The notes under the pieces are model-generated. The model saw nothing but the letters and a program-made list of their open reading frames with translations, did not search any database and was not told the origin of the DNA. A stretch of 64,000 bases of DNA from an uncultured Alphaproteobacteria bacterium (GTDB lineage: Bacteria > Pseudomonadota > Alphaproteobacteria > RF32 > CAG-239): contig CALXTW010000011.1 of assembly GCA_944391515.1 (NCBI GenBank), forward strand, positions 1-64,000, given 5' to 3'. The translations under genes and the position numbers were made by a program. Shown one piece after another: positions 5,346 to 64,000 of the stretch (the stretch's first letter is position 1; each line of letters begins with the position of its first letter).

Positions 5346-6194
5346 TTATTTTTTTGCAAAACTAGGAGGAACCACACCAAGATTTTGTTGTTCGACTTGC
5401 TGGAGCGTTTGAATGAGGTGCTGTTCTAAATCCTTTCTGTATTGGTCGTTTTTCAACATTCTGGTAAATGTGGAATAGAGCGATTTACGAAGTTTTGATG
5501 TTTTAGAAATACCAATAAATAAAGGCATATCCCAAAGAGATTGTTTGGAAAAAGCTACCTGTCTGCGAATGCCAAGTCGAGATGTTTGCACAATTCCATA
5601 GTAATAGCTTGTAAAGACATAATCAATTTCTCCGGTAAATAGTTTTTTGTATAAATCTTCGGAGTTGTCGGTATAAACAATGTTATAATTTTTCATGGTA
5701 TTTGTAACATAGTCAGCTAAATGTTCTCTGGAATCCATGCCGCCTTTTAATTTTTTTAAATCATCCATTGAGCGAACTTCTGTGATTCGATTCGGCATCA
5801 TAACGACACTCATGGGGTTGTTAAGAATTGAAGGGTAAACATATTCAATGCCGTGGTATATATCTGTGTCGTAGTAAATTCCAAGGATGAGGTCTATTTC
5901 TCCCCTAATTACATCTATAACAAGATCTTTGTAGGGTTTGTTGTAAATATACACTATATGGTAAAAATTATTTTTTGCAAAATTATCAAGAAATTGATTG
6001 TAAATTGTATGCATTTCCGGTACACTTGAAGTAGCAGAAACTTCGCCAAATGGTGGGTAGTCCAAGAAGGACGTAATGCGCAATTCTTTGAGTTGAGTGT
6101 TTTTGTCGGATTTTACTTCGACCATGGCAAAAGCATTTGCTGTGATGGTACACAAACAGGTCAGAATAAAGAATTTTGTAAGAAAATGTTGCAT
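5346..6194 (-). CDS. Periplasmic solute-binding protein, family 3
   Basis: A 282-aa protein with a Sec signal peptide (MQHFLTKFFILTCLCTITA, cleavage near AFA-M). It has the two-lobe periplasmic binding fold of SBP_bac_3 proteins: LRITSFLDYPPFGE at the start of lobe 1, a GEIDLILGIYYD segment, and a hinge near MDDLKKLKGG. These normally bind amino acids for ABC importers, but no permease or ATPase gene is adjacent. It may be an orphan receptor-type binding protein. A GGAG lies 10 nt before the ATG. It diverges from flaF. Confidence 0.8.
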   Translation of the reverse strand: MQHFLTKFFILTCLCTITANAFAMVEVKSDKNTQLKELRITSFLDYPPFGEVSATSSVPEMHTIYNQFLDNFAKNNFYHIVYIYNKPYKDLVIDVIRGEIDLILGIYYDTDIYHGIEYVYPSILNNPMSVVMMPNRITEVRSMDDLKKLKGGMDSREHLADYVTNTMKNYNIVYTDNSEDLYKKLFTGEIDYVFTSYYYGIVQTSRLGIRRQVAFSKQSLWDMPLFIGISKTSKLRKSLYSTFTRMLKNDQYRKDLEQHLIQTLQQVEQQNLGVVPPSFAKK

Positions 6195-6280
6195 TGTGGA
6201 TAATCTCCGAATAAATAAAACTCAAACTAATAATAAATTAACCAAATTATATTAAAAAGGTTTTAAATTTGAATTAGCAA

Positions 6281-6655
6281 ATGGGTAAAAAGATGAATGA
6301 AACACAAAAATATTCAGCTACCGATGTTTCATCGATGGATCAAGTAGAGTTGGAAAGCAGAGCTTTTATTCGGGCTGCTTCTTCTTTAAATATGATAAAA
6401 GAACATTGGGATACCGAGCAAGGAAAGCTTGAGGAAGCCTTGGATAAAAATCGCAGGTTGTGGACGATTATTGCCAGCGCAATGAAGGAAGAAGATTGTC
6501 CTCAACCGGTAGAAGTGCGCAACAATATTTTGAATTTGGCATTATTTGTTTTTCGCCGGACTATGGATGTTTTGGCGGATCCTAAACCCGAAAGTTTGAA
6601 TATTTTAATTGATATTAATATGAATATAGCCAAAGGCTTAGCAGGACGTGAATAG
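6281..6655 (+). CDS. flaF: Flagellar biosynthesis regulator FlaF
   Basis: A 124-aa helical protein matching FlaF of alphaproteobacteria, which works with FlbT on flagellin synthesis and secretion. The diagnostic pattern is visible: ELESRAFIRAASSLN, then LDKNRRLWTIIASAM and VRNNILNLALFVFRRTMDVL. The start is uncertain: ATG at 6281 or ATG at 6293 (MNETQKY), and neither has a strong ribosome site. It is the first gene of the flagellar region and is closed by a terminator at 6696, so it forms its own unit. Confidence 0.88.
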   Translation: MGKKMNETQKYSATDVSSMDQVELESRAFIRAASSLNMIKEHWDTEQGKLEEALDKNRRLWTIIASAMKEEDCPQPVEVRNNILNLALFVFRRTMDVLADPKPESLNILIDINMNIAKGLAGRE

Positions 6656-6695
6656 TTTTTTAGAATAATTTTTTTTGTTATGCTTTGAAGTTTAC

Positions 6696-30599: not shown

Positions 30600-31460
30600 A
30601 TGGTAAGTTCAATATCTTCTACCACCAACAAAGATGAAAACGGTGTCAGTAGTTGGGAAAAAACGGTAAAAGACGTTAACGACATTGATGAAAAATTTGC
30701 CAATGCCAGAGACATGGGCTATACCCGCTTAAACTATGCGCGCGTCACCACAGTTGGTAAATTAGCTGGATATGATGCCGTTGACTATTACAAAATTCAG
30801 GTGCAATCCAATGGTAAGCTTTCAGTCTCTTTGCGTAGTACAGAAGGTGATGATGATACTGTTCTGGATTTATCTGAATATGACGCCAAGTTGGAAGAGT
30901 TAAAAAAATTAACCGATCCTGAAGGTTGGGAGAAGGAACAAGCCGAAAAAGCAGAGCAAGAAGCCAATGCACGCCTTTTGGACTTAACGGCAAAAGGACT
31001 GCAGTTGCAAGTTTATACCATCAAAAATGGTAAAGAAGTTTTGATAGGTGACAGTAATGCTGAAAAAGGCAGTGATGAATATGAGGCAATGAGCCAAATT
31101 CTGTCAGGCGACTATCGTGCACAAAAAGGTACTTATTACTTTAAGGTATCCAGAGATGAGACGATAGATGCTGATGAAGAAATGCCTTATGCGTTACAGG
31201 TTTTGCAAGGTGATAGTTACAAGCATGACTATGTAATGACGGAACAAGTATCTCAAGATACCACCAATAAAAAGAATTCTACCATTCCGACCAGTTCTAC
31301 CGATGGTACCTTATCAGGAGCTAATGCGATGTTGATACAAGCCGCGCGTTATGAGGCGACGGCACAAATGTTGGCAGTAGGTTATCAAAATATGGCCAGC
31401 ATATATGGTAACAACTCCACAATGACGGTAGGCTCGCTTACAGTTAGTAAATTATCATAA
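30600..31460 (+). CDS. Protein with pre-peptidase-like (PPC) beta domain, unknown
   Basis: A 286-aa protein without signal peptide or TM. Residues 45-85 (LAGYDAVDYYKIQVQSNGKL then SVSLRS) and 175-205 (KGTYYFKVSRDE, then MPYALQVLQGD) look like the two halves of a PPC-type beta sandwich, split by a charged helical insert. The C-terminal 40 residues (LIQAARYEATAQMLAVGYQN) are helical. The start at ATG 30600 is supported by GGGAG 8 nt upstream. A terminator follows. It could be secreted by the flagellar system or another leaderless route, but this is speculation. Confidence 0.65.
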   Translation: MVSSISSTTNKDENGVSSWEKTVKDVNDIDEKFANARDMGYTRLNYARVTTVGKLAGYDAVDYYKIQVQSNGKLSVSLRSTEGDDDTVLDLSEYDAKLEELKKLTDPEGWEKEQAEKAEQEANARLLDLTAKGLQLQVYTIKNGKEVLIGDSNAEKGSDEYEAMSQILSGDYRAQKGTYYFKVSRDETIDADEEMPYALQVLQGDSYKHDYVMTEQVSQDTTNKKNSTIPTSSTDGTLSGANAMLIQAARYEATAQMLAVGYQNMASIYGNNSTMTVGSLTVSKLS

Positions 31461-31491
31461 GACACTAAAAAAAGACTTGTATATTAAAGAA

Positions 31492-31520
31492 AGAAAAACT
31501 ATCCTTAGGATAGTTTTTCT
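31492..31520. terminator. Terminator-like perfect inverted repeat
   Basis: AGAAAAACTATCC (31492-31504) and GGATAGTTTTTCT (31508-31520) pair perfectly, and the T-run lies within the 3' arm. It sits between the gene at 30600 and trcR. Confidence 0.75.
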
Positions 31521-31553
31521 GTTATTGAAGTAAGTAAAGAAAGGAATAAAGAA

Positions 31554-32147
31554 ATGACAGCTCCATTAATGCCGAGAGCTACTGCGGTATGGTTGGTAGA
31601 AAATACGACTTTAACATTTAAGCAAATCGCCGACTTCTGCGAATTACATGAGTTGGAAGTACAAGCAATAGCTGATGGTGATGTTTCGTTTAACATTATG
31701 GGATTAAATCCATTAGAGACCAATCAATTAACAGCAGAAGAAATTAAACGTTGTGAGGCAGATAAGAGAGCTTCTCTTCAAGCCAACAAGCTGGAATTAA
31801 ATGTTCGTGAGAAAAATGCCAAAGCCAAAAAGCTACTTTCTCCGACCCAAAGAAGTGACAAACCTTGTGCTGTATTATGGATACTTAAAAATTGTCCGGA
31901 AATTATAGATTCTCAAATTTGCAAACTGGTAGGTACTACTAAACCGACCATTGAAAGCATTCGGACCGGCACCCACAAAGATATGATGAATATCCGTCCC
32001 AAAAATCCGGTTGCAATTGGTTTGTGCTCAGAGAAGGAATTAGAAGCATCTTTAGCATTCTGTAAGGCCAGAGCCGAAAAGGCAGCAGCCCCGAAAAAGG
32101 CTTCTAAAAAGTCTAAAACAGCTAAAAAGACTTCTTCAAAAAAATAA
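31554..32147 (+). CDS. trcR: DUF1013 cell-cycle regulator, TrcR-like
   Basis: A 197-aa protein of the alphaproteobacteria-specific DUF1013 family, named TrcR for its link to cell-cycle transcription. Typical pieces are MPRATAVWLVENTTLTFKQIADFC, read here as two segments, IADGDVSFNIMGLNPL, and PCAVLWILKNCPEI with ICKLVGTTKPTIESI, a helix-turn-helix-like end. A Lys-rich tail (KKASKKSKTAKK) may bind nucleic acid. AAAGGAA precedes the ATG. It has a terminator on both sides, so it is monocistronic. Confidence 0.88.
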   Translation: MTAPLMPRATAVWLVENTTLTFKQIADFCELHELEVQAIADGDVSFNIMGLNPLETNQLTAEEIKRCEADKRASLQANKLELNVREKNAKAKKLLSPTQRSDKPCAVLWILKNCPEIIDSQICKLVGTTKPTIESIRTGTHKDMMNIRPKNPVAIGLCSEKELEASLAFCKARAEKAAAPKKASKKSKTAKKTSSKK

Positions 32148-32162
32148 GAACATTAAAGAACA

Positions 32163-32193
32163 AAGCCGCCCGTGTCTAACAGGCGGCTTTTTT
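32163..32193 (+). terminator. Intrinsic terminator after trcR
   Basis: AAGCCGCC (32163-32170) pairs with GGCGGCTT (32182-32189), then a T-run. Confidence 0.88.
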
Positions 32194-32209
32194 GTAAAAA
32201 GAGGATAAT

Positions 32210-33313
32210 ATGGACGCTGTTCTGTTAGCTCAACAGCTAATCAAATATGCAGAGAACCCTAATCAAATAAAAGACTTTCTGGTTTCTCATTTAAAGTCAT
32301 TAGGGTTAAGTGTACAAGTAGGAATTGGCAAATCAGCGCCAGATGACATACTTGCATCGATAGGGAGCGGAGAAAAACATCTTTTATTATGTGGTTATTA
32401 TGACGTTTTGCCCGTCAAAAGCAAAGAGTGGAGTCAGCCCCCATTTAGTGGTAATATTGTATCAAATCAACTCTATGGGCGAGGGGCAACGTCGCTTGGT
32501 AGCTTGTCTTGTGCACTTTGTGCCTTAGAAGATGTTTTATCACAACATTCTAATGTTCATATCAGTCTTTATTTATCATCAAAAGGGGCGCGAGCTTTGC
32601 ATTCAATGAATAATACCACCATGCAGGCTCTATTGCAAAAGAGCACACCGGTAGATACGTGCCTGTCAATAATACCTCAAGCCAATAAGGAGTTAGGGGA
32701 AACAATAAGTATTGGAGCCAAAGGATGTGTGATTTTTCAAATAAAATCATTTGCAGTATCCGGAAATCCGAGTTCTCAGAGTGAACGCGCCAATCCACTG
32801 CATAATATGGTTGATTTTTTATTTAAGGTAAAAACCTATCCGATAGACAACGGCAATGAAAATTTTGGTTCCAGTACATTGCAAATTTTAAGTCTGGAAA
32901 GCCATTACTCCAAAGAAGATGAACTCCCCGAGAGCGCAACGGCTACAATTGGAGTGTATTATAATTCAGGGCATACAAAAGAAGAAATTGTGGAATGGAT
33001 GCGCAAAAATATGGTATTTTCACGCGGACAATTTGAAATGTCCTACCGATATGGGCCGGAAAGTTATATGAGCAAAACAGACAACACAAGTGAAATTTTA
33101 CAGCTCTCAATTCGGAAAGTATTGGAAAATAATCCCTCTCTCAAAGGGGATAGTATTCCTAATTTTGCATGGCGTATAGGTCATTTGCTTCCAATGTTTG
33201 GATTAGGCTTACCCGCTAATAAGATGCATTGTTGTGATGAAGCCGTTCGTTTGGAAGATCTCACACATCTCACGGAAATTTATAAAGACTTTTTAATGCA
33301 ATATTTTAACTAG
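32210..33313 (+). CDS. DapE-like M20 protein lacking most metal ligands
   Basis: A 367-aa homologue of M20/DapE peptidases. The fold is clear: GYYDVLPVKSKEWSQPPFSG aligns with the DapE segment G-H-T-D-V-V-P, YGRGATSLGS with YGRGA-x-D-M-K-G, and LSSKGARA with the S-D-E-E motif. The His (Tyr), the bridging Asp (Ser) and both Glu residues (Lys, Gly) are replaced; the late His in NKMHCCDEAV is kept. It is thus probably catalytically dead or repurposed. It is preceded by the trcR terminator and converges with the gene at 33310. Confidence 0.85.
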   Translation: MDAVLLAQQLIKYAENPNQIKDFLVSHLKSLGLSVQVGIGKSAPDDILASIGSGEKHLLLCGYYDVLPVKSKEWSQPPFSGNIVSNQLYGRGATSLGSLSCALCALEDVLSQHSNVHISLYLSSKGARALHSMNNTTMQALLQKSTPVDTCLSIIPQANKELGETISIGAKGCVIFQIKSFAVSGNPSSQSERANPLHNMVDFLFKVKTYPIDNGNENFGSSTLQILSLESHYSKEDELPESATATIGVYYNSGHTKEEIVEWMRKNMVFSRGQFEMSYRYGPESYMSKTDNTSEILQLSIRKVLENNPSLKGDSIPNFAWRIGHLLPMFGLGLPANKMHCCDEAVRLEDLTHLTEIYKDFLMQYFN

Positions 33314-36272: not shown

Positions 36273-36303
36273 AACAAAGCCTCTCTTCGAGAGGCTTTGT
36301 TTT
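36273..36303. terminator. Bidirectional terminator
   Basis: AACAAAGCCTCTC (36273-36285) and GAGAGGCTTTGTT (36289-36301) form a perfect stem with U-runs on both strands. It serves the lipoprotein gene and the converging DUF1566-like gene. Confidence 0.9.
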
Positions 36304-37160
36304 TAATATACGACGACTGGTCGAACATTTCCTGCTACAGTCTTTGTTTTATCATAACAATAACCAAAACCGCTATCTAGGATTACATAGCAAGCATAAC
36401 CCGCATTTTGTTCCACAGAAGACCAATAATAGGCGTATTTATCTAATGGATAAACTAGAACTCTTGATTTAATGGTATCAAATGTATTTTTAACAACATT
36501 ATAAGTATCATAAAAATTTTGCAAATCTCTCATACTAGGCAAAAACCATTGTCCTTGTTTACAAAAGTCTTTACTACAACCTTTAGGATTATATAAATTA
36601 GCTGCATTTGCTGCATAAGTTGTACCGCTACATCCTCCATTCGTTGTAAGGATTTCTTTAGTATTGGCTCGTCCATCCACGCTACAAGTAGCTAGCGCAT
36701 TTAAATTCAAATCAGCAGTACAATTTGTTAAGAAAACAATATCACATTTGGCACTTGACCAATTCATTGCACCGCCGCTACCTGTATAATATATACTTCC
36801 ATCTTTTTTTGCATCGGTCAAAGCCATAGCTAAACGATGAGAGGTATCAAATACTATTCCTATGGGGGTGCGACTTGAATCTAGCTTATCAGGGCTAATA
36901 GCACAAGTTCCATCGCCATATAAAACATCTCCTACACTATCACAAGTTTTTGTTAATATTTTTTCTTCACAAAAAAGTTTGCTTGTGTCAAACGGACATT
37001 TAATTGCAGCAACGCCTGAACAATCACTCGCGGTCTTGGTATAGCCCAAAGTAGCGCAATCCGGTGTCGGCGTGCAATCAATAGCATAAGAATTGGTTGT
37101 GCTTAATATCAATCCAAATGCGGAGGATATTTGCAACATTCTTTTATATAACTTTCTCAT
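36303..37160 (-). CDS. Secreted DUF1566-like protein, pair 1
   Basis: A 285-aa exported protein. A signal peptide (about residues 1-26, ending TNSYA-I) is followed by the family motif CATLGYTKTASDC, then KCPFD..KLFC. The main domain has YGDGT, DTSHRLAMALTDAKKDGS, the NGGCSGTTYAANAANLYNP stretch, QWFLPSMRDLQNFYD, YYWSSVE and a final NVRPVVVY. The WxLPSxxEL/YWSS/VRPV pattern is that of DUF1566/FISUMP-type domains, found in surface proteins. AAGGAG is present. It lies 27 bp after the cysteine-rich gene and is nearly a paralogue of the gene at 62763. Confidence 0.8.
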   Translation of the reverse strand: MRKLYKRMLQISSAFGLILSTTNSYAIDCTPTPDCATLGYTKTASDCSGVAAIKCPFDTSKLFCEEKILTKTCDSVGDVLYGDGTCAISPDKLDSSRTPIGIVFDTSHRLAMALTDAKKDGSIYYTGSGGAMNWSSAKCDIVFLTNCTADLNLNALATCSVDGRANTKEILTTNGGCSGTTYAANAANLYNPKGCSKDFCKQGQWFLPSMRDLQNFYDTYNVVKNTFDTIKSRVLVYPLDKYAYYWSSVEQNAGYACYVILDSGFGYCYDKTKTVAGNVRPVVVY

Positions 37161-37187
37161 TTTCTTTCTCCTTTTTTGAATTGAATT

Positions 37188-38186
37188 TTAAGCATCTTTA
37201 CAAAATACAGCTGCACTATTGTATGGACATTTGACGTAGCCATTTGGACATTGACTTGCTGATTTTGTGTAGCCTAGCGTTGTGCAATTGGTTTGTGGGG
37301 AGGTGCACCAATAGGTATAATTTGTTGCGCACCCTATATCGCAATATTTTTGTGAACAATCTTCATAATCACAAACAACGCCATCCGGACAGCTAGAAAG
37401 CGAACATTTATTCTCGCAAGTTTTACAGTTATTGTAATATTTGGTACCATTCAACAGACAGTAGTCACTTGGTGTAACCGGTCCTAGTTCTGAACATGTC
37501 ATATTGTAGCCTGCTTTACATTGGCAGGAGGTATACTTGGTTGTTCCGTTATAGGTACAGCCCTCGCCGGCTCCTTCTTGGTTTGTTCCTGTGCAAGTTT
37601 GATTATAGTTGCTAGGACATACACATTCTGAATAATATTTTGTTTCTTCTTCGGTACAGCTACTGTTTGAAGGAACTTGTGGCTCCGTGCATTTTTCAAT
37701 TGGATATAATGTTCTATTGCAGACACATTTATATTTGCCACCACAACTATCCGTACTTAATTCGTTAGGTGAATTACATGTTGCTGAGGTATATTTATAG
37801 CTATCGGAACAGCATGTTTTAAAATATTTTAAGTTATAGGAACAGAAATCAAATTTCCAATATCCAGCGTCACAAGAATCTTTAGTATATCCTAAATTTT
37901 TGCAAGTTTGTTCCGAGGGATCATTAAATTCCACATTGCCGAAATCTATATTATCACCACCGGTTATGAATTGAACTGAGGCTGTTTGGAAAGAATTGCG
38001 CATAGGCAAGCCTATTCCTAGGCTTGCCCCTGACAAAGGTTCAAACTGATTTAGACTGGTTCTTACGAAGTGCGTGTATTGCTGAGAAACACCTTGCTCA
38101 GTCATAGAAACAAAAACATTTTCACTCGTGCCTCCCATAGCGGTTAGCACAAGCAACGATAATCCTATCGCAAGCTGCTTTCTCAT
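37188..38186 (-). CDS. Secreted cysteine-rich protein, pair 1
   Basis: A 332-aa exported protein. The signal peptide is at residues 1-22. After about 80 residues of Gly/Ser-rich sequence come repeated short Cys modules: KYKCVCNRTLYPIEKC, KYYSECVCPSNYNQTC, KYTSCQCKAGYNMTC, KYYNNCKTCENKCSLSSC and CDYEDCSQKYC. It ends with a CTTLGYTKSASQC...KCPYN unit, the same motif found in the DUF1566-like partner. The start at ATG 38186 is preferred (GAGGTG 4 nt upstream) over the ATG at 38198. Many disulfides are likely. The role, perhaps adhesin or surface layer, is unknown. Confidence 0.78.
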   Translation of the reverse strand: MRKQLAIGLSLLVLTAMGGTSENVFVSMTEQGVSQQYTHFVRTSLNQFEPLSGASLGIGLPMRNSFQTASVQFITGGDNIDFGNVEFNDPSEQTCKNLGYTKDSCDAGYWKFDFCSYNLKYFKTCCSDSYKYTSATCNSPNELSTDSCGGKYKCVCNRTLYPIEKCTEPQVPSNSSCTEEETKYYSECVCPSNYNQTCTGTNQEGAGEGCTYNGTTKYTSCQCKAGYNMTCSELGPVTPSDYCLLNGTKYYNNCKTCENKCSLSSCPDGVVCDYEDCSQKYCDIGCATNYTYWCTSPQTNCTTLGYTKSASQCPNGYVKCPYNSAAVFCKDA

Positions 38187-38212
38187 AATACACCTCATTA
38201 TAACTGAACTTT

Positions 38213-38284
38213 GTCACTTTATAATTTAGCATATTCAAAAGCGTTTGTCAAATAGATTTACGCGAAGAGTTATATTTTGGCTAA
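38213..38284 (-). repeat. 72-bp promoter-bearing repeat, copy B
   Basis: The second copy of the block at 1-72; the core is identical at 38226-38252 and there is a shared distal box at 38271-38284 (TTAGCCAAAATATA on the minus strand). It lies between the ftsI stop and the cysteine-rich gene. Confidence 0.8.
38223..38251 (-). promoter_or_regulatory. Sigma-70 promoter of cysteine-rich pair 1
   Basis: -35 TTGACA (38251-38246), 17-nt spacer, -10 TAAATT (38228-38223). Predicted transcription start is about 30 nt before the ATG at 38186. The same arrangement is present at 39-11. Confidence 0.8.
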
Positions 38285-38289
38285 TTAAA

Positions 38290-40068
38290 TTATCTTTTGG
38301 ATTTTTTTTCAAAAGTGGCTTCAATGATACGGCTTTGGCGTAGTTCATCTAAGTCGTAATTGGCCTTTAAATCAAGTTGCGGAGCAATTTCTGAAATAAT
38401 TTTTCCGGCAGTTGGCACGGTGTTCCAACCGGAAGTAACAAATCCCCAAGTCTCTTTTAGTGGTTTAGGCTCATCCATCACCATAAAGAAAGCATATTTA
38501 GGGTTAGAAGCAGGGAAGGTTGCCAAGAAAGAAGTCATCACTTTCTTGTCAACATATTTGCCATTTACAAGTTTGTTGGCAGTACCGGTCTTTCCGGCAA
38601 CTTCATAACCTAACACATTAGCTCTTTTACCAGAGCCTTTGGTAACCACGCCGCGTAAGAGTTTGCGCATTTGTTGAGAGGTATTAAAAGAGACGACCCT
38701 TTTGCTTTCTTTAGCAGAACCATTTTTCACCAAAGTCGGAGCGTGATAAATTCCACCGTTTACAATGGCCGAAAAGGCGCTGACTAGGTGTAACGGCGTA
38801 ATGGAAATACCATAACCATAGCCGACTGTTGCGGTTGTTTCTTCGCCCCAACGTTTTTCAGAAGGAATGAGAGGCACACCTTTTTCGGCAACTTCAATAC
38901 TGTGCACGGGTGTAAAGAAACCGAGATTACTCAAAAACTTGCGTTGTTCTTCTTTTCCAACAGTCAGGGCAATTCGAGCTGAGCCGATATTAGAAGAGTA
39001 AATTAAAATTTCCGGCAAATCGAGCCAACGGTTTTCGCCACGATAATCTTTTATGGTATTATAGCGAAGTTTTAAGGGCTTGGTCGCATCCCATTTATCA
39101 GAAACTTTAACTTTTCCGCTTTCCAATCCCATGGCGGCATTAAAAATCTTCAAAACAGAGCCTGGTTCATATACGCCTTTAGTTGCAAAGTTAAATAAGG
39201 CACGGTCAGGCACATTGTTCATCATATTAGGGTCATAGTCAGGCAAAGAAAGCATGGATATAATTTCGCCGGTATTCACATCCATCAAAATGGCGGCGGA
39301 ACCTTCGGCTTTAAATTTTTCGATTGCGGCTTGCAGTTCCATGCGAATAGTGTCTTGAATGCCGGAATCAATCGTTAACGTTAAAGGAATATCGGATTGA
39401 GTGAGACGTTCATCTAATTCTTTCTCCATACCGGCAATACCTTTGTTGTCAATATTGGTAGAACCCAGCAGTTGCGCAAAGAGTTCTTTGTGCGGATAAA
39501 TTCGTTTTTCTCCGTTTTCAAAGTCTAATCCAGGAATCCCCAAAGCGTTGATTTGGTATTGTTGTGACGGGGTTAAATTGCGTTTGATATAAACAAAGGT
39601 ACTTCTTCTTTGGAGTTTATCTAAAATATCTTCATATCTGATATCGGGCAAAATTGCGCTGAGTTTTGCGGCAGCTTTTACTTTGTTAGGAACTTTTTTC
39701 GGATTGGCATAAAGATTAACCGTAGGCAAAGATGTGGCGATAATTGTTCCGTTTCTATCCAAAATATCCGCGCGTTTAATAGGGTTTGCGGCATAAGCAA
39801 ACAAGTGTTTGGATTCTTCATCTTCTTCTAGGGCAGCGGTTTGGTGAATTCCGCCTGATAGGCAAACATCAAATAATCTGATGCAAATAACCAAATAAGC
39901 AAAAATAAAAAGTAAGGTAGCGAAAGCGACACGATTTTTAACGGTCACCAAAGGATCTCCGTCAAAAATATGGTTATTAAAAACATCATCTCTATCTATT
40001 TTGATTTCTTCCCCCGGAAGATAGAAATGCGCTTTATCTTTTTTGGAAAAATACTTCCCCCATAACAT
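38290..40068 (-). CDS. ftsI: Division transpeptidase FtsI (PBP3)
   Basis: A 592-aa class B penicillin-binding protein that crosslinks septal peptidoglycan. There is one N-terminal TM (about 45-68), a pedestal domain with ANPIKRADILDRNG, and the transpeptidase domain with active-site motifs SVLK (in EPGSVLKIF), SSN (in YSSNIGSAR) and KTGT (in AGKTGTANK). The C-terminal tail is Lys/Arg-rich. Genes mraZ, rsmH and ftsL lie upstream in dcw order; no murE follows. Confidence 0.96.
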   Translation of the reverse strand: MLWGKYFSKKDKAHFYLPGEEIKIDRDDVFNNHIFDGDPLVTVKNRVAFATLLFIFAYLVICIRLFDVCLSGGIHQTAALEEDEESKHLFAYAANPIKRADILDRNGTIIATSLPTVNLYANPKKVPNKVKAAAKLSAILPDIRYEDILDKLQRRSTFVYIKRNLTPSQQYQINALGIPGLDFENGEKRIYPHKELFAQLLGSTNIDNKGIAGMEKELDERLTQSDIPLTLTIDSGIQDTIRMELQAAIEKFKAEGSAAILMDVNTGEIISMLSLPDYDPNMMNNVPDRALFNFATKGVYEPGSVLKIFNAAMGLESGKVKVSDKWDATKPLKLRYNTIKDYRGENRWLDLPEILIYSSNIGSARIALTVGKEEQRKFLSNLGFFTPVHSIEVAEKGVPLIPSEKRWGEETTATVGYGYGISITPLHLVSAFSAIVNGGIYHAPTLVKNGSAKESKRVVSFNTSQQMRKLLRGVVTKGSGKRANVLGYEVAGKTGTANKLVNGKYVDKKVMTSFLATFPASNPKYAFFMVMDEPKPLKETWGFVTSGWNTVPTAGKIISEIAPQLDLKANYDLDELRQSRIIEATFEKKSKR

Positions 40069-62414: not shown

Positions 62415-62723
62415 ATGACTAAAAAACATAAATCACAATACTTATTACGCGGTTTAGTCTTTGTTGCCGGCTTTATGGCGGTGGCTTATGGCTCGCTTTA
62501 TGTATTGAATTCAGATAAACCTTTACCTGAAGTTGCCCCACTGCAACAAGTCGAAACTAATCCCAATCAGCCCACGGTATCATTCTCCTTTAGTAGGGAA
62601 GAATGCTTAGCCCAAGAAATGGCATGGAATTTAGAGGACAATAGTTGCATGAACTTCTCTGATTTGAGTCTATGCTATTCCTTGGAAGGCAACTGGCAAT
62701 ACCCCGCCAAATGTAAACAATGA
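62415..62723 (+). CDS. Small membrane-anchored Cys-containing protein
   Basis: A 102-aa protein with one TM (about 12-30) and a periplasmic tail with Cys at CLAQEMAWNLEDNSC and CYSLEGNWQYPAKC, so one or two disulfides. AAGGAT precedes the ATG. It ends the Mla operon; function unknown. Confidence 0.75.
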   Translation: MTKKHKSQYLLRGLVFVAGFMAVAYGSLYVLNSDKPLPEVAPLQQVETNPNQPTVSFSFSREECLAQEMAWNLEDNSCMNFSDLSLCYSLEGNWQYPAKCKQ

Positions 62724-62762
62724 GACACAAAAAATCAGCCCAAAGATAATACAATAGAGCGC

Positions 62763-63608
62763 TTAAAATTTGATCACCGGCCGAACGTAGTTATTAAAAT
62801 AATCATCTTTAAAGTCACCTTCAATACTGTTTCCATTTTGTATCGTCATTTTCCATGCTATATTGTCACCGGCCTCGTTAGAGGACCAATAAGCGTCCGC
62901 GTTATACTGACCACTATCAATAAATAAACTTGCTCCTTTCGATGACAGCAAAGTTAACATCGTATTTATTGTTTTTTGGTTGATATATATATTAATCAAA
63001 TCTCTCATACTAGGTAAAAACCATTTTCCTTTTTGGCAAAAATTCGCACTGCAACCTGATGGGGAATAAGCGTTGACCGCATTGGCTGCGTAGGTTGTCC
63101 CTCCACATCCACCATTTGTGGCTAATATTGCATCCGTATTTGCTCTGCCATCTAGTCCACATGATATTGCGATTGTGCTGCTATCCCTACAATTATCCAA
63201 ATTCGGCGTATCACAATCCTTACTTGACCAACGCATAACCTCACGTCCGGCACTGCCGTCTTCTTTGACATCGGTCAAAGCTAACGCTAGGCGGTTGATT
63301 ACATCAAACACTACGCCGATTGGTTGCTTGTCTGAAATTGGTTCGCTAGATAACGTTCCATCTCCATACAATATTGCCCCCACTGACACATCTTGACTGA
63401 CCGAACTTCCCAAACATGCCATCTTACTCATATCCGTCGGACATTTTAGGACGACATCTAACCCCTTACAATCAGCCTCCGTTTGCTTATACCCCAATTC
63501 TTCACATGAGGGCGGCATAACACAAGTTTGCGCCTGTACTTCGCTAAAGGAGAAAGCTGCTCCTAAAGACAGCATTGCTCCTGCAATTATGTTCTTACTT
63601 TTCTTCAT
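62763..63608 (-). CDS. Secreted DUF1566-like protein, pair 2
   Basis: A 281-aa exported paralogue of the gene at 36303. Signal MKKSKNIIAGAMLSLGAAFS, cleaved near VQA-Q. Shared pieces: CEELGYKQTEADC, KCPTD, YGDGT, FDVINRLALALTDVKEDGS, NGGCGGTTYAANAVNAYSP, KWFLPSMRDLINIY, YWSSNE and NYVRPVIKF. The start at ATG 63608 has AAGGAG; upstream in-frame codons overlap the cysteine-rich gene. The two loci differ mainly in the middle loops. Confidence 0.8.
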   Translation of the reverse strand: MKKSKNIIAGAMLSLGAAFSFSEVQAQTCVMPPSCEELGYKQTEADCKGLDVVLKCPTDMSKMACLGSSVSQDVSVGAILYGDGTLSSEPISDKQPIGVVFDVINRLALALTDVKEDGSAGREVMRWSSKDCDTPNLDNCRDSSTIAISCGLDGRANTDAILATNGGCGGTTYAANAVNAYSPSGCSANFCQKGKWFLPSMRDLINIYINQKTINTMLTLLSSKGASLFIDSGQYNADAYWSSNEAGDNIAWKMTIQNGNSIEGDFKDDYFNNYVRPVIKF

Positions 63609-63622
63609 CGCTTTGCTCCTTC

Positions 63623-64000
63623 TTAGTTGAACCAACAACGCATAGCGCCGTTGCACCAATAATTATCCAAATCCTTATAGCCAGTTGCGCAACCTGTTAC
63701 ACAATACTTTTGTGAACAATCTTCATATTCACAAACATTGCCATCAGGACAGCTTGAAAGCGTGCATTTGTTTTCACATGTCTTACAGTTGTTGTAATAT
63801 TTAATTCCGTCTTTAAGGCAATAATCGGTCGGGGTTACCGGCCCTAAGTCCGAACAAGTCATATTATAACCACTTTTACATTGGCAACTTGTATATTTGG
63901 TCACGCCGTTTTGCGTACATCCCGTCCCTACACCTTGTTGATTTTGCCCATCACAAGTCTGATTATAGTTACTCGGGCAAACACATTTGCTGTAATAAGT
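63623..64000 (-). CDS. Secreted cysteine-rich protein, pair 2 (partial)
   Basis: The last 125 residues of a paralogue of the gene at 37188; its start lies beyond the window. Translation continues in frame to position 64000 with YYSKCVCPSNYNQTCDGQ-type modules, then KYTSCQCKSGYNMTC, KYYNNCKTCENKCTLSSC and CEYEDCSQKYC. It ends at CATGYKDLDNYWC, lacking the terminal LGYT unit of pair 1. The DUF1566-like partner follows 14 nt later. Confidence 0.78.
   Translation of the reverse strand, partial: TYYSKCVCPSNYNQTCDGQNQQGVGTGCTQNGVTKYTSCQCKSGYNMTCSDLGPVTPTDYCLKDGIKYYNNCKTCENKCTLSSCPDGNVCEYEDCSQKYCVTGCATGYKDLDNYWCNGAMRCWFN

Follow-up and report, generated by a model that had tools for sequence, protein, structure and literature searches.

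A secreted-type gene pair in an uncultured alphaproteobacterium as a probable dispersed relative of the surface-protein genes of a diversity-generating retroelement

What is the function and origin of a pair of secreted-type genes, one of them cysteine-rich, that lies beside ftsI in an uncultured alphaproteobacterium (GTDB lineage RF32; CAG-239)? The pair occupies the minus strand of a 64,000-nucleotide stretch (the window), positions 1 to 64,000 of contig CALXTW010000011.1 in GenBank assembly GCA_944391515.1, a genome of 1,671,022 bases in 44 contigs (G000; its contigs carry C-numbers, and C11 is that of the window). We consider it probable that the pair is a dispersed and apparently non-diversified paralogue of the two surface-protein genes of a diversity-generating retroelement (DGR) locus. 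A DGR concentrates intense mutation on particular codons. The initial annotation of the pair made no connection to DGRs; the family of its DUF1566 member is one of DGR targets, and the two genes together are similar to those that open the DGR locus. The relevant features of the window are as follows.

37188..38198, minus strand: cysteine-rich gene, first of the cassette; 336 aa, signal-like N-terminus, terminal C-x2-LGYT...KCP unit
36303..37160, minus strand: tip gene; 285 aa, signal-like N-terminus, LGYT unit, predicted C-terminal Lcl_C/DUF1566-type C-type-lectin-like domain
36963..37097, minus strand: LGYT/KCP unit at the tip N-terminus (E 1.5e-6 to the cysteine-rich protein)
37194..37325, minus strand: C-terminal LGYT/KCP unit of the cysteine-rich protein (E 6.8e-6 to the tip protein)
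38223..38251, minus strand: putative cassette promoter, TTGACA-17 nt-TAAATT, with TG ahead of the second hexamer
36315..36425, minus strand: position in the first window tip of the variable repeat of sister tips (WSS...VRPV); changed at A 22/40, non-A 23/56, p=0.13
62763..63608, minus strand: tip gene of a second pair; 281 aa, Lcl_C-like
62775..62888, minus strand: variable-repeat position in the second window tip; changed at A 17/47, non-A 22/61, p=0.57
63623..64000, minus strand: 3′ part of the cysteine-rich gene of the second pair, which runs to contig base 64285, the contig end

The evidence for this reading begins with the DGR itself. The single reverse transcriptase (RT) found in the genome is encoded at C40:4524-5819 (RVT_1, 76.4 bits, cut-off 29.6), and its matches to PADLOC DRT and group II RT entries were put down to general RT similarity. 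Beside it lies an Avd homologue (PF22296, 70.4 bits, over the cut-off of 40; NF033474, 56.9 bits, below the cut-off of 80). One copy of a 119-nt repeat pair sits between the RT and avd genes and the other ends an Lcl_C tip; all 21 of their 21 differences fall at template adenines, and in translation the template yields an asparagine run between WSSTEY and YVRPVLAY. Judged by these sequence features, the C40 locus is a standard DGR. A whole-genome template search returned tip genes and short chance-like matches, with no second template by our reading of the table. The RT of the 'Azospirillum sp. CAG:239' record, from which we take the name of the bacterial group, is 69% identical to this RT; judging from such relatives, the window species is probably gut-dwelling.

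In relatives, the two surface-protein genes stand directly at the DGR locus. The order cysteine-rich gene, tip with variable repeat, avd, template(s) and RT is contiguous on single contigs at loci L141, L142 and L143, and L193 retains the cysteine-rich gene, the tip and a truncated RT, avd and template not being found there. Of the eight alphaproteobacterial DGR loci examined whose contigs extend over 3 kb beyond the RT on its upstream side, these four have the pair; our readings of locus order covered 10 and 16 loci, the latter set being 15 of the 80 listed loci together with L103. A repeat-pair search of 10 of the 80 loci, allowing two violations per pair, gave template/variable pairs in L139, L141, L142 and L143, and the matches in L137 fall between template copies. 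The cysteine-rich proteins of the four loci scored 91, 65, 37 and 33 bits against a profile of the window family (A1), compared with a maximum of 7.6 bits among 2600 composition-preserving shuffles. A tip carrying the shared unit reached 23 bits on the cysteine-rich profile by that unit alone, and this, together with large corrections for composition bias, makes the 37- and 33-bit matches the least sure. Across 152 genomes of the family, a cysteine-rich match (E<=1e-10) was found in 13 of the 25 genomes with an RT and in 23 of the 127 without one (Fisher p 0.0007, or 0.004 when the window's genus is left out); these genomes are phylogenetically non-independent and some of the matches are short relatives.

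Within the window's genus, contigs break inside the cassette at the DGR locus. Exact contig-end overlaps link the cysteine-rich end to the tip/DGR end in the expected order in G002 (127 nt) and G006 (141 nt); as an exact overlap may also mean a repeated stretch, these joins are consistent with the order and do not prove it. In G003, a cysteine-rich gene and tip lie between the corresponding neighbours, and RT and Avd were undetected. A proposed join of C9 to C40 in the window's genome was dropped because the two ends do not overlap, and the order of the cysteine-rich gene and the C40 target there is thus taken from relatives.

Two observations on these loci stand apart. At L193, the truncated DGR RT (5995-6663) is still beside the cysteine-rich gene and tip, possibly marking a decaying DGR locus. 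Several tandem asparagine-rich, template-like repeats precede the RT in L137 (884-1657), L139, L142 and L143, a set that includes 'Azospirillum sp. CAG:239'.

If tips dispersed in the genome receive copies of the template, their variable repeats should differ from it mainly at adenines. We compared 25 tips with a WSS...RPV-like end to the genome's own template by codon-wise alignment with Bonferroni correction; the CEAAF-type tips, the C6a tip, the first C7 domain and C39:4099 were not part of this set. In 13 of the 25, change was adenine-specific after correction. Four had at most two changes at the 61 non-adenine sites: C40 (20/47 A, 0/61 others), C39 (19/47, 0/61), C17:1155 (24/47, 1/61) and C35 (16/47, 2/61). 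The remaining signature tips are mixed, as would be expected if the template itself had changed; the templates of G006 and G002 do differ from the genome's own template at non-adenine sites as well, and that of G002 is one codon shorter. In relatives, 13 of 18 loci tested gave 14 rows and five gave none. At p<0.0036 (0.05/14), three of four rows in G006, five of five in G002 (both with RT) and one of five in G003 were significant; G003 has no template and was tested with whichever of three templates gave the fewest non-adenine changes.

Neither window tip carries this adenine-specific signature (36315, p=0.13; 62775, p=0.57). We rejected both as current DGR targets, as there was no adenine bias with the genome's own template or with the best-fitting of the three templates; the best-of-three choice favours an adenine result and its listing counted one C28 repeat twice, and our conclusions rest on the own-template test.

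The three Lcl_C-like ORFs of C39 (L080; 6803-7528, 4099-4797 and 3434-3988) lack an evident signal peptide or cysteine-rich partner. The clean repeat cited above belongs to the first of these (19/47 A, 0/61 non-A), and a non-secreted protein may thus be among those that the DGR diversifies.

The window pair itself corresponds closely to its first description. Both open reading frames (ORFs) are present on the minus strand, 27 bp apart, and the proteins each begin with a hydrophobic signal-like stretch, judged by eye. The C-x2-LGYT...KCP unit reported to be shared between them is significant in both directions: the N-terminal unit of the tip matches the C-terminal unit of the cysteine-rich protein at 43% over 45 residues (E 1.5e-6; reciprocal E 6.8e-6). 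A single promoter had also been proposed. A scan found promoter-like sites no commoner than in shuffled sequence (8 v 8.2), so the support for it comes from the conservation of an aligned block found upstream of 17 of 18 cassette starts, with an exact TTGACA in 16 (by eye); this conservation supports one putative promoter common to both genes, read from 38251 to 38223. Phase switching by promoter inversion was set aside, the upstream blocks being near-constant; invertible elements were not systematically searched for.

The cysteine-rich protein gave no Pfam or NCBIfam match at E up to 1, and a PDB search with its family profile gave no sequence relative, in keeping with the initial annotation, which could name no family for it. 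Kinship with EGF/Notch ligands was dropped as a reading for lack of clear support: the best Foldseek match (4xbm, E 0.023, prob 0.15) was not significant and came from a poor model (pLDDT 66). For the tip, the proposed DUF1566 likeness is weak by sequence and firm by predicted fold. The window tips score 25.1 and 23.4 bits against Lcl_C (PF07603; DUF1566 in the papers), below the gathering cut-off of 34.9, which sister tips on C40 (39.5 bits) and C3 (45.0 bits) exceed; an NCBIfam pseudouridine-kinase match to a window tip (15.3 bits, cut-off 540) is due to chance. The AlphaFold2 model of 36303, the only tip modelled, has pLDDT 84.7 and pTM 0.75. Its best structural match is BACOVA_04982 (4eps, Z 16.0), followed among those considered by the C-terminal domain of Lcl (8q4e, Z 11.9 over 123 residues, rmsd 4.1), Bd2740 (8oks, Z 10.3), InvE (Z 8.1), intimin (Z 7.5) and the DGR variable proteins TvpA (Z 6.8) and Mtd (Z 6.4), a Z under 8 being weak alone. 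A C-terminal C-type-lectin-like fold is thus firmly predicted for this protein. Lcl binds glycosaminoglycans via the tip region at the end of its stalk, according to the passages available of a paper on that protein (PMC11162425), and by analogy a stalk-and-tip binding protein would be expected here.

The second pair at 62763-64000, first described as having the same order and motifs, is a genuine pair, but its motifs differ: the second tip has the LGYT unit, whereas the cysteine-rich member ends in ...WCNGAMRCWFN without it. The start of the tip gene was taken as the ATG at 63608 and not a far-upstream TTG. This pair shares 88% DNA identity over 1039 nt with the cassette at C17:1-1277, its sister in layout, and the C40 target gene shares 88.6% over 570 nt with the C17 tip.

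Both window pairs belong to a larger collection. The idea of a small family of surface or adhesion-type pairs was apt as to kind and understated as to size: the cysteine-rich protein has 29 matches in its own genome and the tip 38, and the cysteine-rich gene is present in 21 to 24 copies, several of them fused. The range arises because three 5′ fragments truncated at contig ends (C19, C9 and C16b) may be halves of genes already counted. All 21 copies with a readable 3′ end are accompanied by a second module, fused in seven and split in 14, where it lies directly next on the same strand. Strict adjacency thus holds in 21 of 21, and a DUF1566-like partner is missing in seven: the second modules comprise 14 Lcl_C-like, five ending in CEAAF or similar, one pectate-lyase/adhesin-like and one other (C36). 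These architectures were counted by eye, and the C6a tip was assigned as Lcl_C-like by eye and by its N-terminal match, not by Pfam. The cysteine-rich gene was therefore not found apart from a second module, but the C39 tips do stand without it. An LGYT unit ends the cysteine-rich protein in three of the 14 split cassettes (the window gene 37188, C6a and C16), and four proteins (C30, C3, C26 and C7) hold two Lcl_C-like domains within one chain.

Some members of this collection are unusual. At C2 (L083), 30785-32584, the cysteine-rich module is fused to a pectate-lyase/adhesin-like C-terminal domain (16.6 bits, below the cut-off of 24.3). C15 (L082) encodes at 39561-39941 a 126-aa short relative of the cysteine-rich protein, and several family genomes contain small cysteine-rich-like matches, some with an internal stop; such short relatives are possibly an ancestral form.

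The cassettes occupy defined chromosomal addresses whose contents differ between genomes. The window pair lies between a small putative lipoprotein gene and ftsI, an address shared with G003, where ftsI is 95% identical, the cysteine-rich protein 60% and the tip of another type. In the stretches read of G001, G004 and G005, another gene stands beside ftsI and no cassette is present; the G006 contig stops at this address, and ftsI was not found in G002. Neither G003 nor G006 has a cassette at the address of the second pair. Over its first 209 nt, the window cysteine-rich gene is 99.5% identical to C6:18218-19153 (C6b), after which the two diverge abruptly. Of the 15 contig ends inspected within or next to cassettes, 14 have an exact 77-mer in common with another place in the stretches compared. 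The simplest reading of this apparent mosaicism is recombination between copies, to which a mixture of strains in the metagenome bin could contribute. At the second pair's address, window positions 62415-64000 (to the C11 end at 64285) and the end of C19 (L085) flank the site that is empty in G003 and G006. The C11 and C19 cysteine-rich halves do not fit one gene, as their overlapping residues differ; the options are a rearrangement, tandem cassettes or strain mixture.

Together, these observations suggest the following mechanism. In this bacterial family, the DGR locus can encode a cysteine-rich protein, which would act as stalk or scaffold, then a C-type-lectin-like tip with the variable repeat in its last ~36 codons, and after these Avd, the template repeat and the RT. 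The RT would copy the template with adenine errors, and the copy would take the place of the tip's variable repeat, in cis and, for dispersed copies, in trans, a replacement we infer because the differences are adenine-only. Copying may have spread the cassette to about two dozen sites among housekeeping genes, almost all preceded by the same promoter block, and stalk and tip segments would be exchanged by recombination, leaving some tips of other types. As the window tips keep the family relation without the adenine footprint, they are best read as retired or stable members. Extracellular ligand binding is their most likely job, whether in adhesion or in recognition of the host, mucus, neighbours or phages, and the cysteine-rich partner would present the tip. 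We infer secretion, the stalk role, homing in trans, the binding function and retirement, as opposed to never having been targeted.

Several observations weigh against the proposed kinship with the DGR locus. Without adenine-specific change in the window tips, nothing shows that either was ever a DGR target. No cysteine-rich/tip pair was found at the other four of the eight loci with sufficient upstream sequence (L140, L151, L182 and L184). Two of the four locus proteins gave the low scores of 37 and 33 bits with large composition-bias corrections, and the best single domain of L141, the weakest of the four, reached ~20 bits. Twelve of the 25 RT-positive family genomes had no cysteine-rich match in a search that also missed G078 (L141 itself), G003 has eight such matches without a detected RT, and at E<=1e-20 the profile matched in 10 of 153 genomes of the order, a sample one genome larger than that of the family. 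In G000, no cysteine-rich gene precedes the C40 target on its own contig, and the end of C9, the candidate for carrying it, does not overlap that of C40. The model of the cysteine-rich protein is poor (pTM 0.40), and the localisation, stalk role and ligand are putative.

A more ambitious account, which we offer tentatively and think may well not hold, envisages two tiers of surface variation. Sockets between housekeeping genes would hold a common cysteine-rich stalk and exchangeable tips; recombination would swap segments of both stalk and tip from socket to socket; and one DGR would hypermutate those that match its template, non-matching tips leaving or re-entering its control by recombination. 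The cysteine-rich protein would then be a dedicated fourth DGR protein, needed to present or anchor the variable tip, and the window tips a stable reserve. Antigenic variation could instead proceed mainly via gene conversion among the two dozen cassettes, the DGR being a minor factor for a few tips. The mosaic segments with abrupt breaks, the exact 77-mers at 14 of 15 examined contig ends, the different tip types at the same address between species and the 12 of 25 tips without a significant signature are what it would produce, but the signature in the other 13, almost pure in four, and in three of four rows of G006 and five of five of G002 makes it rather unlikely in our view.

The absence of a signature in the window tips also bears on two further explanations. 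They might be active targets of another template that is missing from this 44-contig assembly or too divergent to find. Family relatives have several templates per locus, and in the second tip 12 of 17 template-asparagine codons end in a pyrimidine, compared with 111 of 240 upstream codons, a weak indication; yet the template search revealed no second template by our reading of its table and the 36315 repeat changes about equally often at non-adenine and adenine sites, and we give this idea a very small chance. An ordinary two-gene adhesin, whose tip shares only the Lcl_C fold and whose kinship with the DGR locus is incidental, would likewise lack the signature, and Lcl_C-type domains do occur in adhesins such as Legionella Lcl (in the passages available of PMC11162425). 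It would leave to coincidence that the second pair is so similar in DNA to a clean-target cassette, that promoter block and partner gene are shared, and that some relatives have this pair at their DGR locus; the chance we allow it is small.

Such an arrangement matters for how variable proteins are studied. We know of no account, by our own reading, of how most DGR variable proteins are displayed. A secreted-type partner encoded beside the variable protein provides a handle on tip presentation, and natural fusions, such as the 545-aa C28 protein, make stalk-tip presentation directly testable. It also appears that a small genome devotes about two dozen loci to one surface-protein family in which hypermutated-looking and stable members are mixed.

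DGRs with several dispersed targets are already known, as are DUF1566 targets; what is new in the present arrangement is the cysteine-rich partner gene. Our literature search gave no paper that, judged by title and the beginning of the abstract, links a DGR to a dedicated cysteine-rich partner, and no DGR report for 'Azospirillum sp. CAG' or the RF32 group. Among cellular DGRs, diversification has been molecularly confirmed only in Legionella, according to the passages available of a 2024 paper (PMC10907252). For the comparisons that follow, the published systems are likewise known to us from passages of the cited papers.

In Treponema denticola, one RT and one template serve 2-7 TvpA targets per DGR-bearing isolate, in addition to 'suspicious' over-mutated ones (PMC4891356). 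The likeness is that one DGR has several dispersed paralogous targets of C-type-lectin fold, together with paralogues that have decayed repeats. Unlike here, the TvpA targets are of the FGE-sulfatase type and mostly lipoproteins, and the passages mention no cysteine-rich partner; the present genome has Lcl_C-type tips, more copies, fused and split forms, and tandem repeats in one protein. Legionella Lcl resembles the window tip in fold (Z 11.9), its stalk-plus-tip layout serving as a working analogy; its stalk is collagen-like and part of one polypeptide, whereas here the stalk would be a cysteine-rich module that is often a separate protein (PMC11162425). DUF1566 was the commonest DGR target domain in a human-microbiome survey (47 proteins; PMC4159848), with the variable repeat at the C-terminus as in our tips; its passages mention no cysteine-rich partner, and the window copies differ in lacking an adenine signature. 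According to DiGReF, a multi-repeat DGR usually has, beside its diversified genes, paralogues that lack a variable repeat, and the window pair appears to be of this kind; each DGR there has at most four repeats, within limited stretches round the RT (PMC3521204). Remote targets are also found in Thiohalocapsa PB-PSB1, with nine DGR loci and 15 targets (PMC10907252), and Trichodesmium erythraeum, with 18 loci of template/variable-repeat homology and two DGR RTs (PMC8867640), the former also showing duplication and several repeats per target. Unlike either, the 1.67-Mb genome described here has 13 significant repeats for the one RT and the one template found in it, and a recurrent partner gene.

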